A stretch of DNA of 61,963 nt from a virus. The notes beneath the pieces were generated by a model. The model was not told where the DNA came from. It did not search any database and was given only the letters and a program-made list of their open reading frames with translations. Below are positions 5,535-30,434 of this stretch, in pieces. A program made the position numbers and the translations under genes. The stretch spans positions 1 through 61,963 of IMG/VR virus record IMGVR_UViG_3300046692_000161; one strand, 5' to 3'. Position 1 is the stretch's first letter. Each line of letters begins with the position of its first letter.

Positions 5535-5978
5535 ATGGCTATTGTTCAATCTGCGTGGGGTGCCCTGAAGCGTCAGGCCCCTGTGTCGCACGAAGCGGGC
5601 ACCGTCAAGGCTGAGCGCTTCACCTACACCGTGCCGACCGGGCTGACCCTGGCGGCCGGCGACATCATCGAACTGGCTGTGCTGCCAGCTTTCCATACCG
5701 TGGTCGATGCCACCCTGATCGTCGACGAGGCGGGCACCGCCACCTACGACGTCGGCCTGATGTCGAGCATCCCGGGTGACACCACTCAGTCGCGCACCTG
5801 TGGCGCTGAGCTGTTCTCCGGCGCTGCCGATGCCAGCACCTCGCGCATGTCGCTGCCTGGTGGCTTCCGTATCGCCCCTAACGTCGCCAACGATCGATCG
5901 ATCGGCGTGAAGGTGGTCGGTGCGTCGGTGGTCGGTGCGGGCCAGGTCATCGACCTGATCCTCTACACCAAGCAGTAA
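5535..5978 (+). CDS. Probable capsid decoration/head protein
   Basis: A 147-residue protein starting 15 bases after the capsid gene (GAGG eight bases before ATG). It is beta-rich, with an N-terminal stretch leading to hydrophobic strands (ELAVLPAFHTVVDATLIVDE) and a C-terminal strand QVIDLILYTKQ. There is no signal peptide. Small proteins in this position in N4-gp56-type head modules are usually capsid-stabilising or cement proteins; the function is inferred from position only. A terminator follows directly. Confidence 0.65.
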   Translation: MAIVQSAWGALKRQAPVSHEAGTVKAERFTYTVPTGLTLAAGDIIELAVLPAFHTVVDATLIVDEAGTATYDVGLMSSIPGDTTQSRTCGAELFSGAADASTSRMSLPGGFRIAPNVANDRSIGVKVVGASVVGAGQVIDLILYTKQ

Positions 5979-6048: not shown

Positions 6049-6762
6049 ATGAAAATCGAGTGCATCCTGCGTCGCAACCCGCCGACAACTGTAATCCTCG
6101 GCTCTCTGGCCGGTGATAAACACTACAAATTCCAGCCTGATGAACTCGGCCGCCACGTCTGCGAAGTCGAAGACGCGCAGCACATTGCCCGCCTACTGAG
6201 CATCAGCGAGGCCTATCGCCTCCCAGGTGATGAGCCTATTCCGCAAGCGCTGATCCCGGCCATCGTCGAGCACTCGCTGCCGACCGCCGCGGCTACCTTG
6301 GCCCCGATCGACGAAAGCATCATCAAGGGCAGCAACGTGCACCCGGCCACCTTCGATCTGGGCGGCACTGAGCCGGCCGCCATCGAAGACGTCGTATTCC
6401 ATGCCCTGACCCTGTCCGGCCTGACCACGCCTGAGTGGAACAGCCTGCCGGATGAAGACCGCCACAACTTCATCGACATCGCCCTGGACGACCTAGACGA
6501 GCGCGACCTGTCCGACGAAGAGGACAAGCCCGAGCCGATGGCCCATGAAGCAAAGCCGACCCCCGAGACTGCGCCCGTTTCGGCCGCTGGGAGCTCGAGC
6601 GGCGCCGTGCCGAGCAGCGACCAGGCCGCTACGGCCGCTGAACTCGAAGGCCTGCGCGCTGACTACCTGGCCAAGTTCGGTAAGAAACCGCACTACAAGG
6701 TTGGCGCCGATAAGCTGCGCACCCTGATTGCAGCAGACGCGCCGCCCGACAACGAGGAATAA
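6049..6762 (+). CDS. Virion protein with C-terminal HeH/LEM-like domain
   Basis: A 237-residue acidic protein. The N-terminal 70 residues are compact; residues 145-185 are a Pro/Ala/Ser/Glu linker; the last 40 residues (LRADYLAKFGKKPHYKVGAD) look like the small two-helix HeH/SAP-like motif found at the end of several phage head-completion or structural proteins. It lies between the capsid terminator and the first fibre gene and is probably a head-tail joining or minor structural protein. This is a modest-confidence reading. Confidence 0.6.
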   Translation: MKIECILRRNPPTTVILGSLAGDKHYKFQPDELGRHVCEVEDAQHIARLLSISEAYRLPGDEPIPQALIPAIVEHSLPTAAATLAPIDESIIKGSNVHPATFDLGGTEPAAIEDVVFHALTLSGLTTPEWNSLPDEDRHNFIDIALDDLDERDLSDEEDKPEPMAHEAKPTPETAPVSAAGSSSGAVPSSDQAATAAELEGLRADYLAKFGKKPHYKVGADKLRTLIAADAPPDNEE

Positions 6763-8506: not shown

Positions 8507-8674
8507 ATGAATAATAAAGAAACGATGTTGCTTATTCCGGTGCATGTAACTCAAGCGATCATGAATTACTTGGCGTCAAAGCCATGGGGCGAGGTTAAGG
8601 ATGTAATGCCAATCCTCCAATCATTGAGGCCCGCTCAAGAAAAATCGGTAGCCGAGGTTTCAGCAGAGGGCTAG
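8507..8674 (+). CDS. Small conserved phage protein
   Basis: A 55-residue protein (MNNKETMLLIPVHVTQAIMN at the start) beginning one base after the fibre stop codon and ending four bases before the next gene. The hydrophobic heptad-like pattern (LLIPVHVTQAIMNYL, then VMPILQSL) resembles small proteins of unknown function found behind spike genes in other Pseudomonas phages. The tight spacing supports it being a real gene. Confidence 0.6.
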   Translation: MNNKETMLLIPVHVTQAIMNYLASKPWGEVKDVMPILQSLRPAQEKSVAEVSAEG

Positions 8675-17753: not shown

Positions 17754-20700
17754 GTGGCAGAAAATCTTTTTCTCAAGTCGCCTTCTGCGACCGGTCCAAC
17801 TGCCACGGTGCCCGCCGCACCCCCCCTTCCTGAAATCAAGACCCTGCCCGCGCGACAGACGCCCAATGCGGCCGTCAGCCTGAGCAAAGGTTTGTTGCCG
17901 CCGCCTGACCTGCAACCCCTCTTCGAGAAGTATTCCGCTGAATACGGCGTGCCGCTCAACGTGGTGTCGGCGCTGGCGCAGCAGGAATCGGGTTACGACG
18001 CCAATGCCATTGGTGAAATGACCAAGTGGGGCCAAGCCAAAGGCATGCTGCAAAACCTAGACAGCAACGCCAAGGCGCTGGGCATTGACCCGATGAACCC
18101 TGAACAGGCCATTGCCGGCGCCGCGCGCCAGTTGCGTGAGCGCCTGGACAAGGGTTACTCCATGGAAGATGCGGTGAAAGCGCACTTCGGCGGTGACAAT
18201 CGCAAGCAATGGGGCGAGAAGACCAATGCCTACGGCCAAGAGGTATTGGCCAAGGCCAGCATCATTGGCGACGAGCTGATGGCCGGAAAGAAGAAGGCCG
18301 CCCCAGGCAATGACCTGGCCGCGATCCAAGCCGAAATGGACGCCAAGGAGCCAGGCCGTTACAAGGTGATCGACCCGGCCGACATCGCCCAGCGCGACAA
18401 GCAGCGCGCTGCCATCGCCAGCGGGAAAGGTGCCCGACAGGACGCACAGCAGGCCATCGGCGACTATGAAGCCCCGTCACCGTACCCGGTCGACACGCAA
18501 GCGCGTATTGAAGACCGCGTGAACGCACAACAGCCACCGTCGCCGCTGACCATCACCAACCAGGATCGCGTGCGCGCTGGTATCGCGCCGAAAGAAGACC
18601 TGCCGCCTGACGGTTTCATGTCGGCCACCAGCAAGCAGCTGCAGAACGTCCCGGAGCACTTCAAGAACGCGGCCGGCGGCATCATCCGTCGCTTCGGTGA
18701 GCAGGTCGACGACCAGACCCTGGTATCGAACGCCGAGAACGCCGGCATCATCGGCCGGATGAAGGAGAACGGCGACATCACCATGGTGCAGGACGCGCGC
18801 GGCGACTTCACTCCGACCCTGCGCAACGGCAAGCCTGGCGATATTTCCGCCGTCGCGGCCTACATCCGCAAGAACGCGGACAGCCTGATGACGCCGGAAG
18901 AGGCCGGCGCCATGCTTGGTATGAAGCCCAACGAGGTGGCGGCCTACGGTGCCAACCTGAGCAAGGAGGCCCACCGCGACGAGCTGAAGGTCAACCCTGA
19001 CGGCCCGCTGGCCAAATACGGCAGCATGATCATCGGCTCGACCGCTGAAATGGTGCCGGCGATCGTGGCCGGTGTCGTGACCAAGAACCCGGCGACCGCC
19101 ATGGGCATCATTGGCGGCCAGGTCTATGGCCAGAGCTATGACCAGGCGCGCCAGGGCAAGCTGAGCCCGCAGGACGCCGCCAACTATGCGCTGGCCCAGG
19201 CCGCCGCCGAAGCGATCCCGGAAGCTTTGCCGCTGCACTTCATCCTCAAGCCCGGGCAGAACTTCTTCAAGGGCATCCTCAGTGCCGGCGCCGCCGAGGC
19301 CATGCAAGAGTCGGTGACGCAGCTCATTCAATCCGGCTTGGACAAAGGTTCGATCAGCCCGGACATGACGTGGGCGCAGGCGCGCGAGCAGCTGGTGGAC
19401 GCCGCGATCGTCGGCGCTGGTTCCGGTGCGGCGCTGCGTGCCGGTGTGCACGGCATTCAGAAGGCCGTCGATGCGATCCCCTCCCGCAACCGCGAAGCCG
19501 AGGGCGCCGACGCGGCCCAGGACACCCCGCAGGCCGAGCCCGCGCCTACAGCTGAAGCCCAGCCAGCACAGCCCCCTGCGCCCGTTTCAGAGGTCGAAAC
19601 CCCGGCCGCCGCTCCTGCAGGTCCGCTGACCCGCGCCGCGCAGAAGTACGTCGCTCCCGAGCCAGCCCCGGCCGGCGAGCCTGTCACCGTGCGCAGTTCC
19701 GACGGCGAAATGGCCGGCACCCTGGAAAGCTACCAAGAGGACGGCAAGGGCGGCTGGACGGCGCGCGTGCTGGCTGACGACGGCAACGCCTACGACTTCA
19801 CCCAGGACGATGGCGTGTCGCTGGATCGCGCTGGCGCGCAGCCTGAGCAGGCGCCGGCCGCGCCAGCGCTGAACATTCCAACCAGCGGCCCGGTCGGCAA
19901 GATTCCGACCCTGACTGACGTGGTCAAGCCGGGCGTGGAGATTCCAACGCTGACCGAGGAAGTTCCAACGCTGACGGATGTTGTCGAACCTGAAGCGCCC
20001 GACTATTCGTCTATGGACGTTCCGGCCCTGCGCGGCGAACTGAAAGCCATTGCCGCCAAGATCAAGGCCGAGCCGAAAAACAAGGCGCTGACCAAGCAAC
20101 GCAGCACCATTGAAAAGGCGATCAAGGCCAACGTCGAAAACGCCACCAGCAATCCTGCCGTGGCCGAACTGACTGGCGATCCGCTGGCGGCAAAACGCGC
20201 TATTTACACCGCTCACAAGGATACCGGGGCGCCTGACGATGTAGCTGCCAGCTCGGTCTTGAAGGCGCAAGAGAGGGCTAACGAACGCGGCGAGCCGATG
20301 ACGCTGTGGCGCTCCAATGGTGGAACGCTTGGCCTTACCCCTGCATCGGGTAAGCCACCGTTCACCAATGGCACCAAGGTGGCGACAATTCATCCTGAGC
20401 AGTCTACCCAGCCGCCCGCTGTGGACGACCTGACGGGCGACAAAATCGACAAGGAATGGTCGCGCTTCCCTGAAGGTTCGGGCAGCCTGAACATCCCGCG
20501 CGCCGATATGCCGCAGATCAAGGCCGAGCACCGTGGCGCACTTGTGAACTTCCTGAATGCCCGCGGCATTGCCCACAAGGAAGAAACGGTATCGCCAGGC
20601 AGCGTGAAGCCGACGCAGGCTGAGTTCTCCCGTAACAAAGTGAACAAGGCGAAGGCATACGAGGGCGGCAACCGTTCGATCCTGGTGTCGAGTGACGGCC

Positions 20701-23700
20701 ATGTTCTGGATGGCCACCATCAATGGCTTGCAAAGCGTGAGTCGCGCGACGACATCAAGATCATTCGCCTGGACGCACCGATCAAGCAACTGCTCGACGA
20801 GGTGCGCGAGTTCCCGAGCGCCACCACCGCCGACGGTGCCAAGGAATCGAAGCCTACCGCTCAGCGCGACCTCAAATATGAAACTAAAGCCGTGCGTGAG
20901 GCGATTCACAAGACCGGCAAGGACAGCATCAAAGACGTCCATGCCGCGCTCAAGACAGCCCAATGGCCGAAGGTGACGGACGAAGAAGCGCAGGCCATTC
21001 TCGACAGCCTGAACACGCCGGCCGAGCGCAAATCGCGCGAACTGAACGATCAGTCGAAGGCGGAATACAGCAAGGGCCACGCGCTCACGCACAACAAAAA
21101 CGGCCTGCGCATGCGCGACAACGATCCAATGTCGCCGGCCGAGCAGCTTGAAGCCGAAGAGCACTTCTTGGAAAGCTTCCGCCTGGACAATGAGGCGAAG
21201 TTGGCACGCGGCGAACCGATTGGCGACATCGCCAAAGCCAACTACGCCCGCGATGTCGAGAAAGTTGCAGCCAAGCGCGCCAGCCTCAAGGAAAAGGCTG
21301 AACCAGATGCCCGCGCAGAACGTCGCAAACTACCGTCAGCGGTAGAAGGCGAGCTGCATACCGCGCTGCACACGCTGAACCAGGCCGAGCAGCGCCTAAA
21401 GGCCGCGTTCAAGGCCCGCGGCAAAGATGATCCAGCAGTAAAGGCGCTGGTCGAAGAGTTGCGCCCTAGCGTCACCAAGGCCCGAGAAACCCTGAGCAAG
21501 GTTCAGCAGGTCGCAACCGAAAGCGGCGCAGATTACAGCAAGGTGCTTGCCGAAACTGAAGGCGTGCCGGACCTATCTGCTTATGGTTTGACCGAAACAA
21601 AACCGGCCGAACCTGCATCAGAAGTGCCGAAAACTGCAACGCCAGCGGCCAAACCTGCATCAACCGCAGCGGAACCGGCATTAAAACCGAAGACGCCCAA
21701 GCAGAAAGCCAAGGCGCGCAAAGAGCGCATGCAACGGACCAGCCTCGACACCATGGGCGTCAATGTCGACGACCAGTTCACCGTGTCGGCCGACGTCGGT
21801 TATGTCAGTCCTGGCAAGGTTTACACGTTGGAGTCGATTGACAGCGCCGGCACCGCGCACGTCACCAGCCCAACGGGCGGCACCACCTTGTCGATGGCCG
21901 ACCTTCTGCGCGCCAAGCACGACGGCGTGACCTTCACCAAGGTAGAAGAGCAAGCGCCGAAGGCTGAGCAAGCCATGGAAGCACCGCTACTCCCGGCAGA
22001 AACCGCGAGAGAACTGGTGAAAGCCGCCGAGTACGGCGCCAGCAACAAGCTGGTCAGCCAGGATCGTGCGGCTGAACTGCGCGAGAAGCTGAAGAAGAAG
22101 CTCAACGGCTCGCAACTGAACGCCGGCATTGATCCGGAAATTCTGGCGATGGGCGCCGAGCTGGCGGTGTTCCACATCGAGGCCGGCGTGCGCAAGTTCG
22201 CCGACTTCGCCAAGACCATGGCCGGCGACCTGGACATGCCGCTGGAGAAGGTGCGCCCGTATCTGCGCAGCTGGTACAACGGTGCCCGCGACATGATGGA
22301 AGACAACGACGTGTCGATTGCCGGCATGGACGATGCGACCGAAGTGCGCGCCGCGCTGGCCCGCCTGGACGCTGGCGAGACTGCGCCAGAACCCACCGCC
22401 CTGGAGCAATGGCAGGCGCGCATGGAGAGCAACGGCGCCAAGCGCATCGAGCACGATGGGGAGCAGTGGTTTTATTACCCTGGCTCGGCCGGCGTGGTGC
22501 GTGAGGACGGCAAGCAGTTCACCCACTTGTCGAGTGTTGACCAGGGCAAGCAACAAAAGAACGGCTGGACGCCTCGGCAGGCCAGCGATTACGTCGACCG
22601 TGATGGCAAGGCAACTGAGGCGAAAAATGCCCCAGTTCAAACGCCGACCGATACCGTGGTCACGCCGGGCGGCAAAGAGTTCGAGGTGCGTGAGGAAGTG
22701 GTCGAGGCATCGAGCCTGATCACGTCGAACAGCGCCGACGGCAAGGTCAACCCGGCCTACCCGAAAGCCTTGCAGCCGCGCGATCGTTCGCGCTCGGCAT
22801 CGCTGACGCAGGTCAACGACATCGCCGCCAACCTGAACCCCAAGTTGCTCGGCAAGAACGCCAGCGTTACCGACGGTGCGCCGATCGTGTCGCCGGACAA
22901 CGAGGTTGAAAGCGGCAACGGCCGCACGCTGGGCATTCAGCAGGCCTATGCCCGGGGCAATGGCGACAAGTACCGGGCCTGGGTTGAAAGCCAGGGCCAC
23001 GACACCAGCGGCATGACTGAGCCGGTACTGATCCGCCGCCGCGTGACGCCAATGACCGACGCCGAGCGCGTCGACTACACCACCGCTGCCAACGAGCGCA
23101 CCACCCTGGCCTTGAGCTCTACTGAGCGCGCCGTCGCCGATGGCAAGAAGATGGCGCCGATCCTGCACCTGTTCCATGGTGGCGACGTAGCGGGCGCGGC
23201 CAACCGTGAGTTCGTTCGCGCCTTCATGGGCGACGTGGCGAGCAAGAGCGATCGCGGCAACCTGATGGACAGCGACGGCATGCTTTCGCAGGATGGCCGT
23301 CGGCGCATCGAGGCGGCATTGCTGGCTGCCGCCTACGACGACCCAGCCCTGGTTAATGACATCTTCGAGAGTGCCGACAGCGACATCAAGTCGATCGGTG
23401 GCGCGCTGCTCGATGCCGCCGGCCCGTGGGCGCAGATGCGCCAGGAATCGCGCGACGGGCAAATCTCCAAGTCCGTCGACGTCACCCCGAACCTGATGGA
23501 AGCGGTGAACCTGGTGCGCCAGGCCCGCGCCCAAGGCAAGTCGGTGTACGAACTGGTGAATCAGAACGACATCTTCAGCGGCGAGCTGGACCAGGCGACC
23601 AAGGACTGGGTGAGCGTGTTCTATCGCGGCGCCAGCTTGGCACGCGCCCGTGGCCGGGATAAGGTGGCGGACGCACTTCTAACCTATACTCAGCTGGCCC

Positions 23701-26700
23701 GCGCTACCCAGCCGGGCGCCAACCTGTTCGGCGACCCTGAAGTCTCGAGCGCTGACCTGATCAGAGGCACACATGACAAACTCGACCGCCAAGAGTCCCA
23801 AGCCAGCCAGCAACAAGGCCTCTTCGGAGACGCACGACCTGATGACCAAGGTACTGGCGCACGTCGCGCAGACGGACAGCGACCAGCACCTGGCGCGCGT
23901 AGTGAAACAACGCCGGAAGGGGACGAAGTAAATGCAACAAGTACCCGCCAGCGTGTGGAACCAGATCGCGCAGACCCAACCGCTGCGCAACCCGTCGATG
24001 CAAGCGCTGTTTCCGATGAGCCAGCCGCAGCTGGACGACGCCCTGACCGCGCAAGCCCTGACGCTGGAGTCGCACGGACTGACGGACAGCGTGATCAACG
24101 CCTACCAACTGATGGCGCCGTTGCTGGCCGAGAATCAGGCGATCAGCGCGTACATCAACCAGACGGGACATTCCGACCTGAGAGCGGCCCTGCCGGAGGT
24201 GCTGAACGCGCCCGAAGCGGTGGCGATCGCGTCGCAGGAGAACCCGTTGAGCGAGAGCGAGCAGAGCGAATTGTTGGAACTGCTCCTGCCGCTGACACCC
24301 GCGAGTTCGATCAACGTCTAGCGGCGCAGAAAAAGGCGAGCGGCACCAAGACCGTTCGCGGCGACAAAGCCAACATCGATAAAGCCCTCCCCCTGTTGCT
24401 TGATCCCCAGCGCGACGACGTGCTGAAGGCCGAGCAACGCTTTGCCGTGGGCAACGGCATGCTCTTGACTAACGGCACCGGCACCGGCAAGACCGCCAGC
24501 GGCATGGGTGTCGTGGTCCGCTCGATCAACGCCGGCAAGCCCAATGCCCTGGTGATCGTACCGAGCGACAAGATTGCCGCCGACTGGATCAAGTTTGCCA
24601 AGATGCTGGGCGTGGACCTGAAGTTGCTGGAAAGCACCAGCGACAACGGCAAAGACGGCCAGGTCATCACCACCTATGCCAACTTCGGCGCCAACGATAG
24701 CCTGGCCCTGCGTGACTGGGATCAGTTCGTGGCCGACGAGGCGCATTACCTGTCGAGCAACGAGAAGGGCGAAGGCACCGCGGCGCTGGCTCGCCTGCAA
24801 GCGCTGAGCGGCCACCATGACGGCTTCTATCAGTGGGTGCGCCAGCGTAACGCCAAGGAATGGCAAGCGCTTCAGCAAGCCCAAGCGGCGATGCCTGACC
24901 AGGAACAGATTGCCAACTACTCGGCCAAGGACCTGGACGCGCTGACCGAAACCCGCGACGCCGCCGCTGAAGCCTGGGCGGCAATCGAAGAGCCGGCGAA
25001 GAAAGCCTGGCAAGAGCGCTGGGCCAAACAGCAAGACCTGCCGAAAACCCTGTTCCTGTCGGCCACCCCGTTCGCCTACGTCAAAAGCGTGGACTACGCC
25101 GACGGCTACCTGTTCGATTACGTCGACCCGGCCGAGCGCTACAGCAACAAGGCAGAAATGGCCGGCTCCGCGTACAACAGCGGCGATGCGCGTGAAAAGT
25201 TCTTCATGCAGCACTTCGGCTACCGCATGCGTTACAACAAGCTGACGGCACCGGAAGCCGGGGTTGACTCCGAACTGATGGAGCAGAATTTCAACCAGCA
25301 CCTGAAGGAAGTCGGGGCGCTGTCCGGCCGCCGCCTGGAAGTGCCGTATGACTACGACCGCAAGTTTGTCGTGGTTGACGATGCCGTGGGGCAGAAGATC
25401 GACCAGGGCCTGGCCTACCTGCGCGAACACGCCGACGGCAAGTACCGCGAGGTGTACGACGCGGTGGCGGCGACCTTCGATTACCAGAAGCGCATGTACC
25501 TGCTCGAATCGATCAAGGCCAGGGCCGTGGTGCCGATGATCAAGGAGCACATGAAACTCGGCCGCAAGGTCGTGGTGTTCCATGACTTCAACAAGGGCGG
25601 CGGCTTCGACCCGTTCAACGCCGGCCTGGCCAGCATCACCGAGCCCGACGTGCGGGCGCTGGCGCGTGAAGCCTTCGATGCGCGCCCGGACATCTTCAAG
25701 AAGATGGACCTCAAGGGCCTGTATTCTCCGATCGACACCCTGTCGGCGGCCTTCCCTGACGCGCTGTTCTTCAACGGCACCGTGCCCAAGGCCAAGCGCC
25801 GGGCCAATGCCGACACCTTCAACGACGACGCCAGCGGCAAAGACCTGATTGTGCTGCAGTCGGACGCCGGCCGCGAAGGTGTGAGCCTGCACGACACCAC
25901 CGGCAAGCACATGCGCGTGCTGATCAACCTCGGCATGCCAGGCAAGCCGGTGGCGGCGATCCAGATCGAGGGCCGCACCTACCGCACAGGCCAGGCCAGT
26001 GACGCAGCGTTTCGCTACCTGACCACCGGCACCGCCTGGGAGGCGAGCGCCTTCGCCAGCAAGATCGCCGAGCGCGCATCGACCGCTGAAAACCTGGCGC
26101 TGGGCACCGACGCCCGCGGCCTGAAGCAATCCTTCATCGACGCCTACAACGGCGCCGAAGACCTGGCCCCGGGTGCCGACGACGGCAAGGGCGGCAAGGC
26201 GCTGGACCGGGAGCTGGCCGCCAGCTCGACGCTGAGCCCGTTCAACAAGGCCAAGGCCTACTACTTCGCCCAGCAGAAGAACACCAAGCGCCGCGACCAA
26301 CGTGAAGGCGTGGACTACTTCGCCACCCCGGAGCCGGTCGGCTTCAAGATGGCCGAGTGGGCCAACATCCAGAAGGGCGACGACGTGCTGGAACCGTCGG
26401 CCGGGCATGGCGCGATCGCGCGGTTCTTCCCGCCGCTGAGCAACGTCACCATGGTTGAGCCGAGCTATGACCTGTCGCAGCGGGCGGCCCTGGCCAACGG
26501 CAACGCGCGGATCATCAACGACAACTTTGAAGCGCTGCACTTGACCAACAAGTACGACGCCATTGTCATGAACCCGCCTTACGGCAACGGCGGCAAGACT
26601 GCCATCGAGCACGTCGCCAAGGCCGCCAAACACCTGCGCGAGGGCGGCCGGATCGTCGCCTTGATTCCGCGCGGGGGTTTGACTGACAAACGCCTGCAAG

Positions 26701-29700
26701 CCTTCCTGGAGAGCGACGAGGCGGCGAACCTGTACCGCGTGGCCACCGTCGATATGCCGGCGGCCACCTTCGAGCGCGCCGGCACATCGGTCAACACGCA
26801 GATCCTGGTGCTGGAAAAGCACAGCAACCCGGACGATGCGCAGAACATCCATGCCCGCACCATCAACCTGAGCAACGCAGAGTCGACCGCCGAGCTGTTC
26901 GACCGCATCGAGCACCTTGACCTGCCTGACCGGTCGCCGACCAGCAAGCCGGAACCCAAGGTTGAACTGATCGAGCACATCACCGGTAAGGGCAAGCGCC
27001 TGACCGGCATCGTGCGCACCGACCTGACCAAGGCCGAAGCGCAGGAAATCGACGCCTACACCTTCGCCAAGGATGGCGGGTGGTTCATCCGCTCCAAGCA
27101 CCTGGGCGATGGCAACCGGTTGTCGGTGGCCACCCCGATCGGCGAGCCGGCTTCGCACCAGGAAGTGCGCGACGCGATTACCCAAGGCCCGTTCGGCCCG
27201 GTGGTCAAGAAGCTGATCGACGCCGGCCACATCGTTATCCATGGCAACGTGCAATCGCTGCCGGATGGCGTGGCGGCAGTGCGCGGCATTCAGGCCGTGA
27301 CTACCCCCGACGGCAAGGTTCACCTGGTCGCAGCCAACCTGACCCCGGGCAACGCCAACGGCGTGTTGCTGCATGAAATGTTTCACAGTGGTGTCGAGCA
27401 GCTGGTCGGCTCGCAGCGCTGGGAGGCCCTGACCAAGCGCCTGGATGGCTTGTATCGACAAGCCGAGCAATCCACCGGCAAGGCCCGCGCCGTGTTCGAT
27501 CGAGCGCGTGAGCGCGTCCAGCAGGCCATGGAGCAGGGTGCGGTGGCCGAAGACATGACCGCCGAAGAGTTTGGCGCCTACGCGATCGAGGAATACGAGC
27601 AACTGCCGGGCGCCTTCCGCAAGTGGGTGGATGACCTGGTGGGCGCCGTCAAGGCCTGGCTGTTCAGCCGCTACGGCAAGCAACTGGGCCAAGTCACCCC
27701 GGCGCAGCTGCGCGCCCTGGCCAAGGACGCGCTGGTGTCGATGGCCCTGGCCAAGCGTGGCGAGCTGTTCGGCTCAGCCGGCACCATGTTCAGCGTGCGG
27801 CCGTCGAAGGTATTCCAAGACCTGACCGATAAGCAGAAGTCGTTCCTCGACAAGATCGGCCCGGAGAAACTGCCGAAGGTGCTGGCCGATCGCTGGCGCC
27901 AGCTGACCGACAACCTGGGCCTGCGCATCCGCCAGGCCGGTGTCGACCGCTATGCCGCCTTGCTGCGCAACGACCAGGCCTTGTACGGCGCCGACACCCT
28001 GGAAGGTTCGATTGCGTCCAGCGCCTGGGTGCTGGCGCGCATGAGCCCGGCCGCCGGTGGCGCGGTGCATGCCTTGCTGAACAACGGTCGCATCTACCTG
28101 GACCGCGACCAGAAGGTGATCGACATCAAGGACAACACCACCGGCCTGGGCGCCACCCTGCGCAAGCTGGGTAACCCGGCCGAGATTGACCGCTTCATGG
28201 GTTGGATCGCGGCCAACCGTTCCAAGCGCCTGCTCGGCGAAGGCCGGGAGAACCTGTTCACCCCGGAAGAAATCGAGGCCGGCATCAAGCTGTCGGGCGG
28301 CAAACTGCTCGACGGCAAGCCGCGCGGCATTCTCTACCAGCAAGCGTGGAAAGAGTTTCAACAGCACCGCGACGACGTGCTGGGCATCGCCGAGGCTACC
28401 GGGATCATCACCCCGGAGCAGCGCGAAACCTGGAGCGAAGAGTTCTATGTTCCGTTCTACCGGGTGATGGATGAAGAGAACCTGGGCGGGCCGACGTCCG
28501 GCGGTTCGGGCCTGTCGCGCCAACAAGCCTACAAAAAGCTCAAGGGCGGCAAGCAGCACCTGAACGACCTGCTGGAAAACACCCTGCTGAACTTCCATCA
28601 CCTGCTGCAGGCCAGCTTGCGCAACCAGGCCTCGGCCATGGCCATGACCAACGCCGAGCAGCTGGGCATCGCCAGCCCGACCACCGAAAGCCGGCGCGAC
28701 AAGAAGTCGAGCACCTTTGTCATGGTTGACGGTGAAAAGCAGTGGTACAACATCAACGACCCGATGACCTTCAAGGCCGTCACGGCGCTGACCGATACCG
28801 GCATGAACACTATCGCCATGCGGGTGATGCGCGGCTTCAAGCGCTTCTTTACCAACATGACCACCGTGACCCCGCAATTTGTGGTGGCCAACGCCATCCG
28901 CGACACCCTGGCGGCCATGGCCACGTCGCCGACCAGCGCTATCCCGCTGAAAAACGCCTTCCAGGGTGCGCTGACCTACGGCAACAAACACCAGCGCGCG
29001 CGGATGATGGCCAGCGGCGGCGCGTTTTCCTTCGGTCACGTCTATGGCCAGGGCGCGCACGAAATGAAAGTGGCGCTGACCGGGACCATGCGCACCGCGC
29101 AAGTGCTGCGCGATCCGAAGCTGATCCCGAACACCCTGCTCAATGCCTGGCGCAAGTACCACAACATCACCGACTTCGCCGAGAACATGAACCGTGCGGG
29201 CATCTGGAAACAGAATGAGTCGCGCGGCAAGCTCAAGGCGGCCTTTGAAGCGCGCGACCTGATGGACTTCAGCGCCCACGGTGACGCGGCCGCGGTGCGC
29301 TTCTTCATTGACGTCGTGCCGTTCCTCAACGCGCGTATCCAGGGCCTGGACAAGCTCTATCGTTCGGGCGGCAAGCCGGCGCTGAAAACCATGTTCGGCA
29401 AGGGCAGCGAGTCGGACAAGAAAGCCTTTGCCCGCTTCGCCGCGGTGGTCGGTGCGCTGACCGCCTTTAGCGTCATGCTGTACCTGCGCAACAAGGACGA
29501 TGAGGATTACCGCAAGCTCGAGGACTGGCAGCGCGACACCTACTGGGTGATCAAGATCGGCGAGAACATGTTCTTCATTCCGAAGCCGTTCGAGGTGGGT
29601 TCGATCGCCACCATGGGCGAGCGCCTGATGGAACAGTTTGTTGATCCGACGGTGGGCGGTGAGAAACTGGCCAGCCGCGCCGGGCACATGCTGATGGACA

Positions 29701-30434
29701 CCTTCTCGATGAACCCGATGCCGCAGGCGTTCAAGCCGGTGATCGAACTGGGCATGAATGAAAACAGCTTCACCGGGCGCCCGATCGAAGACCAATCCAT
29801 GTCGCGCCTGAGCCCAAGCCTACGCTCGCGCCCGGACACGTCGCGCCTGTCGGAAGCGTCGAGCCGTGGCATTGAAAGCGCGCTCGACCTGGTGGGCGGC
29901 AAACAGTCGGCGCTGTCGCCGGTGCAGATTGACCACCTGATTCAAGGCTACTTCGGTGCGGTGGGCGCTACAGCGGTCGGCCTGGCTGATGGCTTCTGGC
30001 GACGTGCGCAGGGCGAATCCTTGCCGGCGCGCAGCTGGGACGAATACCAACCGGTGAAGCGCTTCTACAAGGATTTGACCAAGGAGGATAACTACACCCG
30101 CTACGGCACCGACTTCTACAGCGCGCTGAAGAAAGCCGACCAGGCCTATGCGGACCTGCAGCACCTGGCCAAGTTTGGTGAAGAGGAAAAGGCGGTGGCC
30201 CTGGAGAACAAGCAGGCCGACGTTTTGGCCCTGCGCGGCACCTTGGCCGGCGTGAATCGCAACCTGGCGCGGATCAATGCGGAAATGAAGCGCGTGCAAA
30301 TGGATAAGGACATGGACGGCGACGGCAAGCGCATGGAGCTGGATCGCCTGCGCTCGATGCGCAATCTGATCACGGAAGAGGTGGGCAAGGAGCTGGAACA
30401 GCAGAAGGTTAAGCGCGGTTCCGCGCCACAATAA
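17754..30434 (+). CDS. Giant polyvalent ejection protein: transglycosylase, ParB-like, SNF2 helicase, N6-adenine methylase, zincin
   Basis: A 4,226-residue protein from GTG (GAGGA eight bases upstream). Domains in order: lytic transglycosylase SLT (about 47-165, catalytic Glu78 in QQESGYDANAIG); hydrophobic helical block (about 420-570); ParB/sulfiredoxin-like segment (about 960-1015, HVLDGHHQW); DdrB-like ParB domain (about 1640-1790, ESGNGRTLGIQQAY); disordered linker (about 2007-2189) overprinted by two other genes; DarB-like SNF2 helicase (Walker A GTGTGKT about 2240, DEAH about 2327, LFLSATPF, QIEGRTYRTGQ); N6-adenine methylase (LEPSAGHGAI about 2880, NPPY about 2938); zincin (HEMFH about 3205); LPD38-like and helical C-terminus. 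These are known parts of phage and plasmid polyvalent proteins injected with DNA. Inferred job: open the wall, then protect incoming DNA from restriction. Confidence 0.85.
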   Translation: MAENLFLKSPSATGPTATVPAAPPLPEIKTLPARQTPNAAVSLSKGLLPPPDLQPLFEKYSAEYGVPLNVVSALAQQESGYDANAIGEMTKWGQAKGMLQNLDSNAKALGIDPMNPEQAIAGAARQLRERLDKGYSMEDAVKAHFGGDNRKQWGEKTNAYGQEVLAKASIIGDELMAGKKKAAPGNDLAAIQAEMDAKEPGRYKVIDPADIAQRDKQRAAIASGKGARQDAQQAIGDYEAPSPYPVDTQARIEDRVNAQQPPSPLTITNQDRVRAGIAPKEDLPPDGFMSATSKQLQNVPEHFKNAAGGIIRRFGEQVDDQTLVSNAENAGIIGRMKENGDITMVQDARGDFTPTLRNGKPGDISAVAAYIRKNADSLMTPEEAGAMLGMKPNEVAAYGANLSKEAHRDELKVNPDGPLAKYGSMIIGSTAEMVPAIVAGVVTKNPATAMGIIGGQVYGQSYDQARQGKLSPQDAANYALAQAAAEAIPEALPLHFILKPGQNFFKGILSAGAAEAMQESVTQLIQSGLDKGSISPDMTWAQAREQLVDAAIVGAGSGAALRAGVHGIQKAVDAIPSRNREAEGADAAQDTPQAEPAPTAEAQPAQPPAPVSEVETPAAAPAGPLTRAAQKYVAPEPAPAGEPVTVRSSDGEMAGTLESYQEDGKGGWTARVLADDGNAYDFTQDDGVSLDRAGAQPEQAPAAPALNIPTSGPVGKIPTLTDVVKPGVEIPTLTEEVPTLTDVVEPEAPDYSSMDVPALRGELKAIAAKIKAEPKNKALTKQRSTIEKAIKANVENATSNPAVAELTGDPLAAKRAIYTAHKDTGAPDDVAASSVLKAQERANERGEPMTLWRSNGGTLGLTPASGKPPFTNGTKVATIHPEQSTQPPAVDDLTGDKIDKEWSRFPEGSGSLNIPRADMPQIKAEHRGALVNFLNARGIAHKEETVSPGSVKPTQAEFSRNKVNKAKAYEGGNRSILVSSDGHVLDGHHQWLAKRESRDDIKIIRLDAPIKQLLDEVREFPSATTADGAKESKPTAQRDLKYETKAVREAIHKTGKDSIKDVHAALKTAQWPKVTDEEAQAILDSLNTPAERKSRELNDQSKAEYSKGHALTHNKNGLRMRDNDPMSPAEQLEAEEHFLESFRLDNEAKLARGEPIGDIAKANYARDVEKVAAKRASLKEKAEPDARAERRKLPSAVEGELHTALHTLNQAEQRLKAAFKARGKDDPAVKALVEELRPSVTKARETLSKVQQVATESGADYSKVLAETEGVPDLSAYGLTETKPAEPASEVPKTATPAAKPASTAAEPALKPKTPKQKAKARKERMQRTSLDTMGVNVDDQFTVSADVGYVSPGKVYTLESIDSAGTAHVTSPTGGTTLSMADLLRAKHDGVTFTKVEEQAPKAEQAMEAPLLPAETARELVKAAEYGASNKLVSQDRAAELREKLKKKLNGSQLNAGIDPEILAMGAELAVFHIEAGVRKFADFAKTMAGDLDMPLEKVRPYLRSWYNGARDMMEDNDVSIAGMDDATEVRAALARLDAGETAPEPTALEQWQARMESNGAKRIEHDGEQWFYYPGSAGVVREDGKQFTHLSSVDQGKQQKNGWTPRQASDYVDRDGKATEAKNAPVQTPTDTVVTPGGKEFEVREEVVEASSLITSNSADGKVNPAYPKALQPRDRSRSASLTQVNDIAANLNPKLLGKNASVTDGAPIVSPDNEVESGNGRTLGIQQAYARGNGDKYRAWVESQGHDTSGMTEPVLIRRRVTPMTDAERVDYTTAANERTTLALSSTERAVADGKKMAPILHLFHGGDVAGAANREFVRAFMGDVASKSDRGNLMDSDGMLSQDGRRRIEAALLAAAYDDPALVNDIFESADSDIKSIGGALLDAAGPWAQMRQESRDGQISKSVDVTPNLMEAVNLVRQARAQGKSVYELVNQNDIFSGELDQATKDWVSVFYRGASLARARGRDKVADALLTYTQLARATQPGANLFGDPEVSSADLIRGTHDKLDRQESQASQQQGLFGDARPDDQGTGARRADGQRPAPGARSETTPEGDEVNATSTRQRVEPDRADPTAAQPVDASAVSDEPAAAGRRPDRASPDAGVARTDGQRDQRLPTDGAVAGRESGDQRVHQPDGTFRPESGPAGGAERARSGGDRVAGEPVERERAERIVGTAPAADTREFDQRLAAQKKASGTKTVRGDKANIDKALPLLLDPQRDDVLKAEQRFAVGNGMLLTNGTGTGKTASGMGVVVRSINAGKPNALVIVPSDKIAADWIKFAKMLGVDLKLLESTSDNGKDGQVITTYANFGANDSLALRDWDQFVADEAHYLSSNEKGEGTAALARLQALSGHHDGFYQWVRQRNAKEWQALQQAQAAMPDQEQIANYSAKDLDALTETRDAAAEAWAAIEEPAKKAWQERWAKQQDLPKTLFLSATPFAYVKSVDYADGYLFDYVDPAERYSNKAEMAGSAYNSGDAREKFFMQHFGYRMRYNKLTAPEAGVDSELMEQNFNQHLKEVGALSGRRLEVPYDYDRKFVVVDDAVGQKIDQGLAYLREHADGKYREVYDAVAATFDYQKRMYLLESIKARAVVPMIKEHMKLGRKVVVFHDFNKGGGFDPFNAGLASITEPDVRALAREAFDARPDIFKKMDLKGLYSPIDTLSAAFPDALFFNGTVPKAKRRANADTFNDDASGKDLIVLQSDAGREGVSLHDTTGKHMRVLINLGMPGKPVAAIQIEGRTYRTGQASDAAFRYLTTGTAWEASAFASKIAERASTAENLALGTDARGLKQSFIDAYNGAEDLAPGADDGKGGKALDRELAASSTLSPFNKAKAYYFAQQKNTKRRDQREGVDYFATPEPVGFKMAEWANIQKGDDVLEPSAGHGAIARFFPPLSNVTMVEPSYDLSQRAALANGNARIINDNFEALHLTNKYDAIVMNPPYGNGGKTAIEHVAKAAKHLREGGRIVALIPRGGLTDKRLQAFLESDEAANLYRVATVDMPAATFERAGTSVNTQILVLEKHSNPDDAQNIHARTINLSNAESTAELFDRIEHLDLPDRSPTSKPEPKVELIEHITGKGKRLTGIVRTDLTKAEAQEIDAYTFAKDGGWFIRSKHLGDGNRLSVATPIGEPASHQEVRDAITQGPFGPVVKKLIDAGHIVIHGNVQSLPDGVAAVRGIQAVTTPDGKVHLVAANLTPGNANGVLLHEMFHSGVEQLVGSQRWEALTKRLDGLYRQAEQSTGKARAVFDRARERVQQAMEQGAVAEDMTAEEFGAYAIEEYEQLPGAFRKWVDDLVGAVKAWLFSRYGKQLGQVTPAQLRALAKDALVSMALAKRGELFGSAGTMFSVRPSKVFQDLTDKQKSFLDKIGPEKLPKVLADRWRQLTDNLGLRIRQAGVDRYAALLRNDQALYGADTLEGSIASSAWVLARMSPAAGGAVHALLNNGRIYLDRDQKVIDIKDNTTGLGATLRKLGNPAEIDRFMGWIAANRSKRLLGEGRENLFTPEEIEAGIKLSGGKLLDGKPRGILYQQAWKEFQQHRDDVLGIAEATGIITPEQRETWSEEFYVPFYRVMDEENLGGPTSGGSGLSRQQAYKKLKGGKQHLNDLLENTLLNFHHLLQASLRNQASAMAMTNAEQLGIASPTTESRRDKKSSTFVMVDGEKQWYNINDPMTFKAVTALTDTGMNTIAMRVMRGFKRFFTNMTTVTPQFVVANAIRDTLAAMATSPTSAIPLKNAFQGALTYGNKHQRARMMASGGAFSFGHVYGQGAHEMKVALTGTMRTAQVLRDPKLIPNTLLNAWRKYHNITDFAENMNRAGIWKQNESRGKLKAAFEARDLMDFSAHGDAAAVRFFIDVVPFLNARIQGLDKLYRSGGKPALKTMFGKGSESDKKAFARFAAVVGALTAFSVMLYLRNKDDEDYRKLEDWQRDTYWVIKIGENMFFIPKPFEVGSIATMGERLMEQFVDPTVGGEKLASRAGHMLMDTFSMNPMPQAFKPVIELGMNENSFTGRPIEDQSMSRLSPSLRSRPDTSRLSEASSRGIESALDLVGGKQSALSPVQIDHLIQGYFGAVGATAVGLADGFWRRAQGESLPARSWDEYQPVKRFYKDLTKEDNYTRYGTDFYSALKKADQAYADLQHLAKFGEEEKAVALENKQADVLALRGTLAGVNRNLARINAEMKRVQMDKDMDGDGKRMELDRLRSMRNLITEEVGKELEQQKVKRGSAPQ
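23773..23931 (+). CDS. Small gene nested in another frame inside the giant gene
   Basis: A 52-residue basic protein (starts MTNSTAKSPKPASNK, ends KQRRKGTK) in the +1 frame relative to the giant gene. It has an excellent ribosome site: AGAGG at 23763-23767, five bases before ATG. It is followed with no gap by the next nested gene (TAAATG). The giant frame here encodes a low-complexity Arg/Asp/Ala/Gly linker. No family is recognised. Confidence 0.6.
   Translation: MTNSTAKSPKPASNKASSETHDLMTKVLAHVAQTDSDQHLARVVKQRRKGTK
23932..24321 (+). CDS. Nested gene inside the giant gene, helical protein of unknown function
   Basis: A 129-residue protein in the same frame as the 52-residue nested gene; ATG directly follows that gene's stop, with AAGGGG nine bases upstream. 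The protein has normal globular composition with amphipathic helices (QLDDALTAQALTLESHGL, VINAYQLMAPLLAENQ) and an LLELLLPL C-terminus. In this frame third codon positions are overwhelmingly G or C, the Pseudomonas pattern, while the giant gene's own frame here has many A/T third positions. So selection appears to act on the nested frame. Role unknown; perhaps an ejection or head accessory protein. Confidence 0.65.
   Translation: MQQVPASVWNQIAQTQPLRNPSMQALFPMSQPQLDDALTAQALTLESHGLTDSVINAYQLMAPLLAENQAISAYINQTGHSDLRAALPEVLNAPEAVAIASQENPLSESEQSELLELLLPLTPASSINV

Follow-up and report, generated by a model that had tools for sequence, protein, structure and literature searches.

The window, meaning the whole 61,963-base virus record that was analyzed, very probably contains a dual-coding stretch in which the frame of a giant gene (frame 0) and a nested gene, B, are read from the same bases. 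Frame 0 would give a disordered linker within a giant DarB-like polyvalent protein, and the +1 frame would encode B, a separate protein of about 14 kDa that is acidic and all-helical. We infer that B is expressed from the giant mRNA by ribosomes that initiate internally, at a site belonging to B; some of the relatives have another small gene, A, that abuts B in the same manner. Judged from sequence comparisons, B is a real, deeply conserved gene, and it seems to be a compact protein of a new family missed by annotation programs. It was unannotated in every public record that we looked at, though it is as constant as the helicase that it accompanies. Gene callers reject overlapping ORFs, and B is missing from annotation for that reason. 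The features discussed below are as follows.

17754..30434, + strand: giant polyvalent (DarB-like) protein gene, frame 0, 4,226 codons (4226 aa)
22671..23042, + strand: ddrB-like ParB domain (PF18763), upstream flank of the overlap, giant-frame residues 1640-1763 (E 2.7e-34)
23763..23767, + strand: AGAGG, Shine-Dalgarno-like site of ORF A, five bases before its ATG
23773..23931, + strand: ORF A, +1 frame, 52 codons plus stop; candidate second overprinted gene, restricted family
23805..24290, + strand: giant-frame linker, predicted disordered (pLDDT <50), coinciding with A and B
23914..23931, + strand: CGGAAGGGGACGAAGTAA, Shine-Dalgarno-like site of ORF B and stop of ORF A (duplex energy -7.9)
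23932..24321, + strand: ORF B, +1 frame of the giant gene, 129 codons plus stop; nested gene, universal in the helicase family
24354..25553, + strand: start of the SF2 helicase domain of the giant protein, just 3' of B in nearly all relatives

The giant gene and its nested frames

The giant protein matches the Pfam families SLT (lytic transglycosylase), ddrB-ParB, ResIII/DEAD (SF2 helicase), Helicase_C_4, MTS (methylase), and LPD38. By these matches an SF2 helicase, an adenine-type methylase, and LPD/ddrB-type domains lie on one polypeptide, which places it among DarB-like proteins. In relatives, the giant gene adjoins virion and lysis genes, and a GNAT-type acetyltransferase gene recurs amid virion/tail genes a few genes upstream of it (L001, L002, L003, and L065). 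Two relatives carry in-frame stops in this reading frame: in the metagenome-assembled contig of L062, the helicase frame is split by a TAG (8615-8617), which is either a sequencing error or a real break, and in L123 a stop at 5669-5671, upstream of B, separates the ddrB-like part from the remaining giant frame.

Two genes overprinted within the giant gene had been proposed in the initial annotation, and this proposal is now strongly supported for B and more weakly for A. The coordinates, lengths, and +1 frame given there for the 52- and 129-residue ORFs were exact on recheck, as was the claim of good ribosome sites, with AGAGG five bases before ORF A and AAGGGGA upstream of the ATG of ORF B. 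The TAA of ORF A abuts this ATG, and none of 108 background ATGs has a Shine-Dalgarno-like site as strong as that of B. The nested codons had also been described as GC3-rich; over the same bases GC3 is 0.86 in the B frame versus 0.41 in the giant frame, and the relative codon log-likelihood is higher for the B frame, with host-like usage, at 39 of 46 loci. A 129-codon open frame is by itself unremarkable in GC-rich DNA. With the giant amino acids and codon usage taken as given, the B frame of the window would stay open with a probability of 0.49; its openness alone is weak evidence, and conservation across relatives is what decides.

Structure predictions set the two frames apart. AlphaFold, supplied with 41 B sequences, returned a confident all-helical model with eight helices (mean pLDDT, 92; pTM, 0.86). 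The giant-frame model covering 23631-25130 is disordered at residues 59-220, corresponding to 23805-24290, and this disorder is flanked by less certain helices and by a helicase core with values of >90. The giant linker, earlier noted as low in complexity, is also poorly conserved and predicted to be disordered. These results invert the usual picture of overlapping genes, with the inner frame folded and constrained and the outer frame flexible, and suggest a screening rule for missed genes, namely, to look within the disordered linkers of giant phage proteins.

Family searches with B gave nothing consistent in Pfam, PHROGs, NCBIfam, or PADLOC, and comparison with PDB sequences gave only chance-level matches. 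Foldseek searches of the PDB and BFVD returned no matches with an E value of <0.001, and a second look with VIA-align gave no Z score above 3.6. The modeled B therefore carries no fold assignment, although the fold need not be new just because matches are weak or absent. No description of B was found in open-licence papers.

Conservation of B and selection on the two frames

A tblastn search with B matched Serratia phage Parlo, Klebsiella phage ZX1, Pseudomonas phage Skulduggery, two Vibrio phages, and Ruegeria phage 45A6; each of them has B, with its ATG aligned, in the +1 frame relative to the matching giant gene, and in none of these records is it annotated. Loci L008-L064 were added by scanning viral and bacterial contigs with profiles. 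Two further scans that were independent of B and used the helicase region yielded 80 and 79 readable loci, all of which had B nested within the helicase ORF in the +1 frame. Altogether, B occupies the +1 frame on the same strand at 227 of 227 helicase loci, with none lacking it; as these include many repeated contigs and close relatives, the meaningful counts are the 103 distinct B proteins, which form 63 clusters at 70% identity and 33 at 50%. No relative was found in which the nested frame is broken and the linker kept. Weak genome matches at L234/L235 were set aside, L234 reading as a methyltransferase-like ORF that we took as a chance match.

B has its own start, ribosome site, and stop, all kept across relatives. 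The start is ATG in 102 of the 103 distinct proteins, the ribosome-site energy is -4.5 or lower in about 90% of the B loci (103 distinct), and at 39 of 46 loci the site of B falls within the top 10% of background ATGs from the same region. The predicted proteins are 119 to 141 residues long and acidic (median pI, 4.9). These signals bear on programmed frameshifting, by which ribosomes would either slip to the B frame and return, or begin at B and then shift to the helicase; B would then be an optional domain within the giant protein rather than a protein in its own right. The position of B directly before the helicase, in frames one base apart, would suit such a mechanism, but the conserved ATG, the ribosome site, and the stop of B before the helicase all speak against it. 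In addition, in-phase slippery heptamers are limited to 5 of 46 loci, where their positions are scattered, and none is conserved; frameshifting is accordingly considered very improbable.

The substitution pattern points to selection on the inner frame. Among the nine closest relatives, changes synonymous in B and nonsynonymous in the giant frame occurred at 1.85 times the expected frequency and changes of the opposite class at 0.55 times, whereas seven control windows in the same gene showed the reverse (0.2 to 0.6 and 1.9 to 2.9, respectively); these figures are sums over sequence pairs, so the counts are non-independent and descriptive. When the giant amino acids of each relative were held fixed and codons redrawn, the identity of B to the window exceeded the null in 45 relatives with z values of 6.5 to 19; for the giant frame, with B held fixed, the excess over the corresponding null had a median z of only 1.7. 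B was the more conserved frame in 1,034 of 1,035 pairs. Purifying selection thus acts on B beyond what the outer frame demands. The idea that conservation of the +1 frame simply follows from that of the giant protein draws on the conservation of the giant gene downstream of B, but given identities this far above the giant-fixed null, together with substitution classes reversed relative to the control windows, we regard it as scarcely credible.

The outer frame, in turn, is kept open. Under a reading as three ordinary genes, the upstream gene would end before B, the helicase gene would start after it, and the giant frame would be open only as B avoids T-ending codons. The low complexity, poor conservation, and predicted disorder of the giant frame over B fit such an arrangement. 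However, frame 0 is open across B in 33 of 33 clusters, although synonymous codon shuffling within B leaves it open with a median P of only 0.13 per cluster (joint P of about 10^-32, within-gene codon shuffling), and the third frame is open in 0 of 33; with giant-gene codon usage instead, the per-locus median P of an open frame is 0.03. Three separate genes are hence highly unlikely. Selection in this stretch is mainly on B, with frame 0 weakly constrained in sequence but kept free of stops. Because frame 0 is open in all 33 divergent clusters, both frames are probably translated and both products probably made, with selection maintaining the sequence of B and the continuity of the giant frame. 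The case provides a rare long same-strand overlap with enough divergent lineages for a statistical test of both frames.

ORF A appears to be a second overprinted gene with a narrower distribution and weaker support than B. Homologues of A abut the ATG of B, with zero bases between them, in the close relatives of the window, in L030/L036, and in L035; L076/L077 have, by resemblance, an A homologue abutting B as well. In a 5'-anchored test, the identity of A to L030 and L035 was above the null (z, 5.0 to 7.5), and in close relatives both frames look constrained over A, on fewer sequences than for B. In the A cases inspected, the upstream giant protein is ddrB-like. A is absent from Parlo, ZX1, Skulduggery, and the Vibrio phages, and ORF A of L030 had no matches among GenBank phages.

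Module boundaries and the history of the overlap

The two sides of B differ in their neighbors. The 3' neighbors belong to essentially one family (101 of 103 loci). On the 5' side there are at least six groups of unrelated flanks, and DNA similarity to Skulduggery sets in exactly at the ATG of B (window position 23932), where the module boundary lies. B and the helicase therefore appear to behave as a cassette, to which various upstream modules have been joined in frame. At window position 23932, the upstream modules look as if exchanged at the start of B. In L155, the segment before B (6270-6580; AKEFDPYAFYYQGEILVRSKHL) bears a by-eye resemblance to the segment of the window giant protein after the methylase domain (AQEIDAYTFAKDGGWFIRSKHL), which suggests domain shuffling around B.

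The initial annotation had envisaged two ordinary genes between two large ones, with loss of stops in the other frame fusing the flanks. Part of this proposal stands: the codon usage of B (39 of 46 loci) fits B as the older frame, and a disordered giant linker is what would be expected if B is older. Old de novo genes, however, likewise gain host-like codon usage (review PMC8227390). Separated flanks, as fusion would predict in related phages, did not appear; flanking domains on separate genes, or free A or B between them, were found at none of the 227 loci, and there was no unfused relative even among Acinetobacter prophages with a 1,283-codon helicase gene. Because the helicase frame runs through B at 227 of 227 loci, including short forms of 1,245 to 1,283 codons without the N-terminal half of the giant protein, the overlap is ancient and maintained and not a product of local loss of stops. 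Fusion of two free genes is compatible with the cassette history and is only partly supported.

Possible role of B and comparison with known systems

B may be a dedicated partner of the helicase-methylase protein, for instance, an adaptor or chaperone that would hold or package it before ejection. Partnership with this DarB-like protein is the role we favor, because B accompanies the helicase at every locus while the upstream flanks swap at its start codon, and we put it forward tentatively, at somewhat under an even chance. Any specific step (adaptor, chaperone, or packaging) is more speculative still, and physical overlap alone can explain the co-occurrence of B and helicase. Alternatively, B may be an independent effector, such as an anti-defence protein, that shares the transcript by chance and does not act as a partner of the helicase protein. 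The acidity of B agrees with such a role, as does a free-standing B-like gene with no helicase after it in bacterial genome G092 (contig C88; L231:7563-7934, + strand), although that contig ends about 330 bases past B. The L231 gene follows a Sel1-repeat/protease-like gene, and the frame equivalent to the giant frame is open through B, with a stop 44 bases later; it may be an escaped copy. Set against an independent effector are the unbroken linkage to the helicase while upstream flanks change and the lack of any match to PADLOC models, and we consider this reading rather unlikely.

The partner role can be compared with phage P1. DarB-type polyvalent proteins such as P1 DarB (Iyer et al. 2017, PMC5512222) are matched by the giant frame in its SF2 helicase, DNA methylase, and LPD/ddrB-like domains; unlike the window gene, P1 darB and ddrB contain no nested B homologue, and the word "overlap" is not mentioned in PMC5512222. 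The P1 head packages the Dar proteins together (PMC9024508, PMC12810830); they are incorporated in order and leave with the DNA on ejection (PMC12810830). Among these proteins, Ulx and DdrB are listed as helping to localise or add DarB (PMC9024508), DarB-Ulx neighbors recur in Thermus phages (PMC11437467), and JC1 virions contain a DarB-like giant protein (PMC9144972). By analogy only, the window giant protein may likewise be packaged in the virion and ejected. B resembles Ulx and DdrA in being small; their genes adjoin darB or ddrB as separate genes, whereas B overlaps. No similarity between B and P1 Ulx or DdrA was detectable (hhalign probability of about 0.1, against single sequences), and the partner role is therefore an analogy, since B is not a detectable homologue of either.

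Within these bounds, B is a concrete candidate for a component by which phages handle giant injected anti-restriction proteins. We see roughly equal weight for and against a broader view, in which B is an unrecognised family, perhaps with an unreported fold, that is present in all examined phages and prophages of this helicase lineage and serves an injected anti-restriction machine as its obligate, cis-encoded partner, with the overlap kept across alpha-, beta-, and gammaproteobacterial phages and N-terminal modules swapped at the start codon of B.

Nested genes are known from related settings. P1 iddB ("internal to ddrB") is a small annotated ORF that, like B, lies inside another gene, here ddrB, but it is antisense; it was rejected as a B homologue, its sequence being unrelated and B lying on the same strand at 227 of 227 loci. 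A closer formal parallel is Rz1 inside Rz, a pair of same-strand nested phage genes noted for JC1 (PMC9144972), in which, as with B, a complete inner gene is read from the same strand in a different frame. The two cases have nothing in common in function or fold, and in the case of B the inner gene, under constraint and predicted to be folded, lies within an outer frame that encodes a disordered linker of a giant protein.
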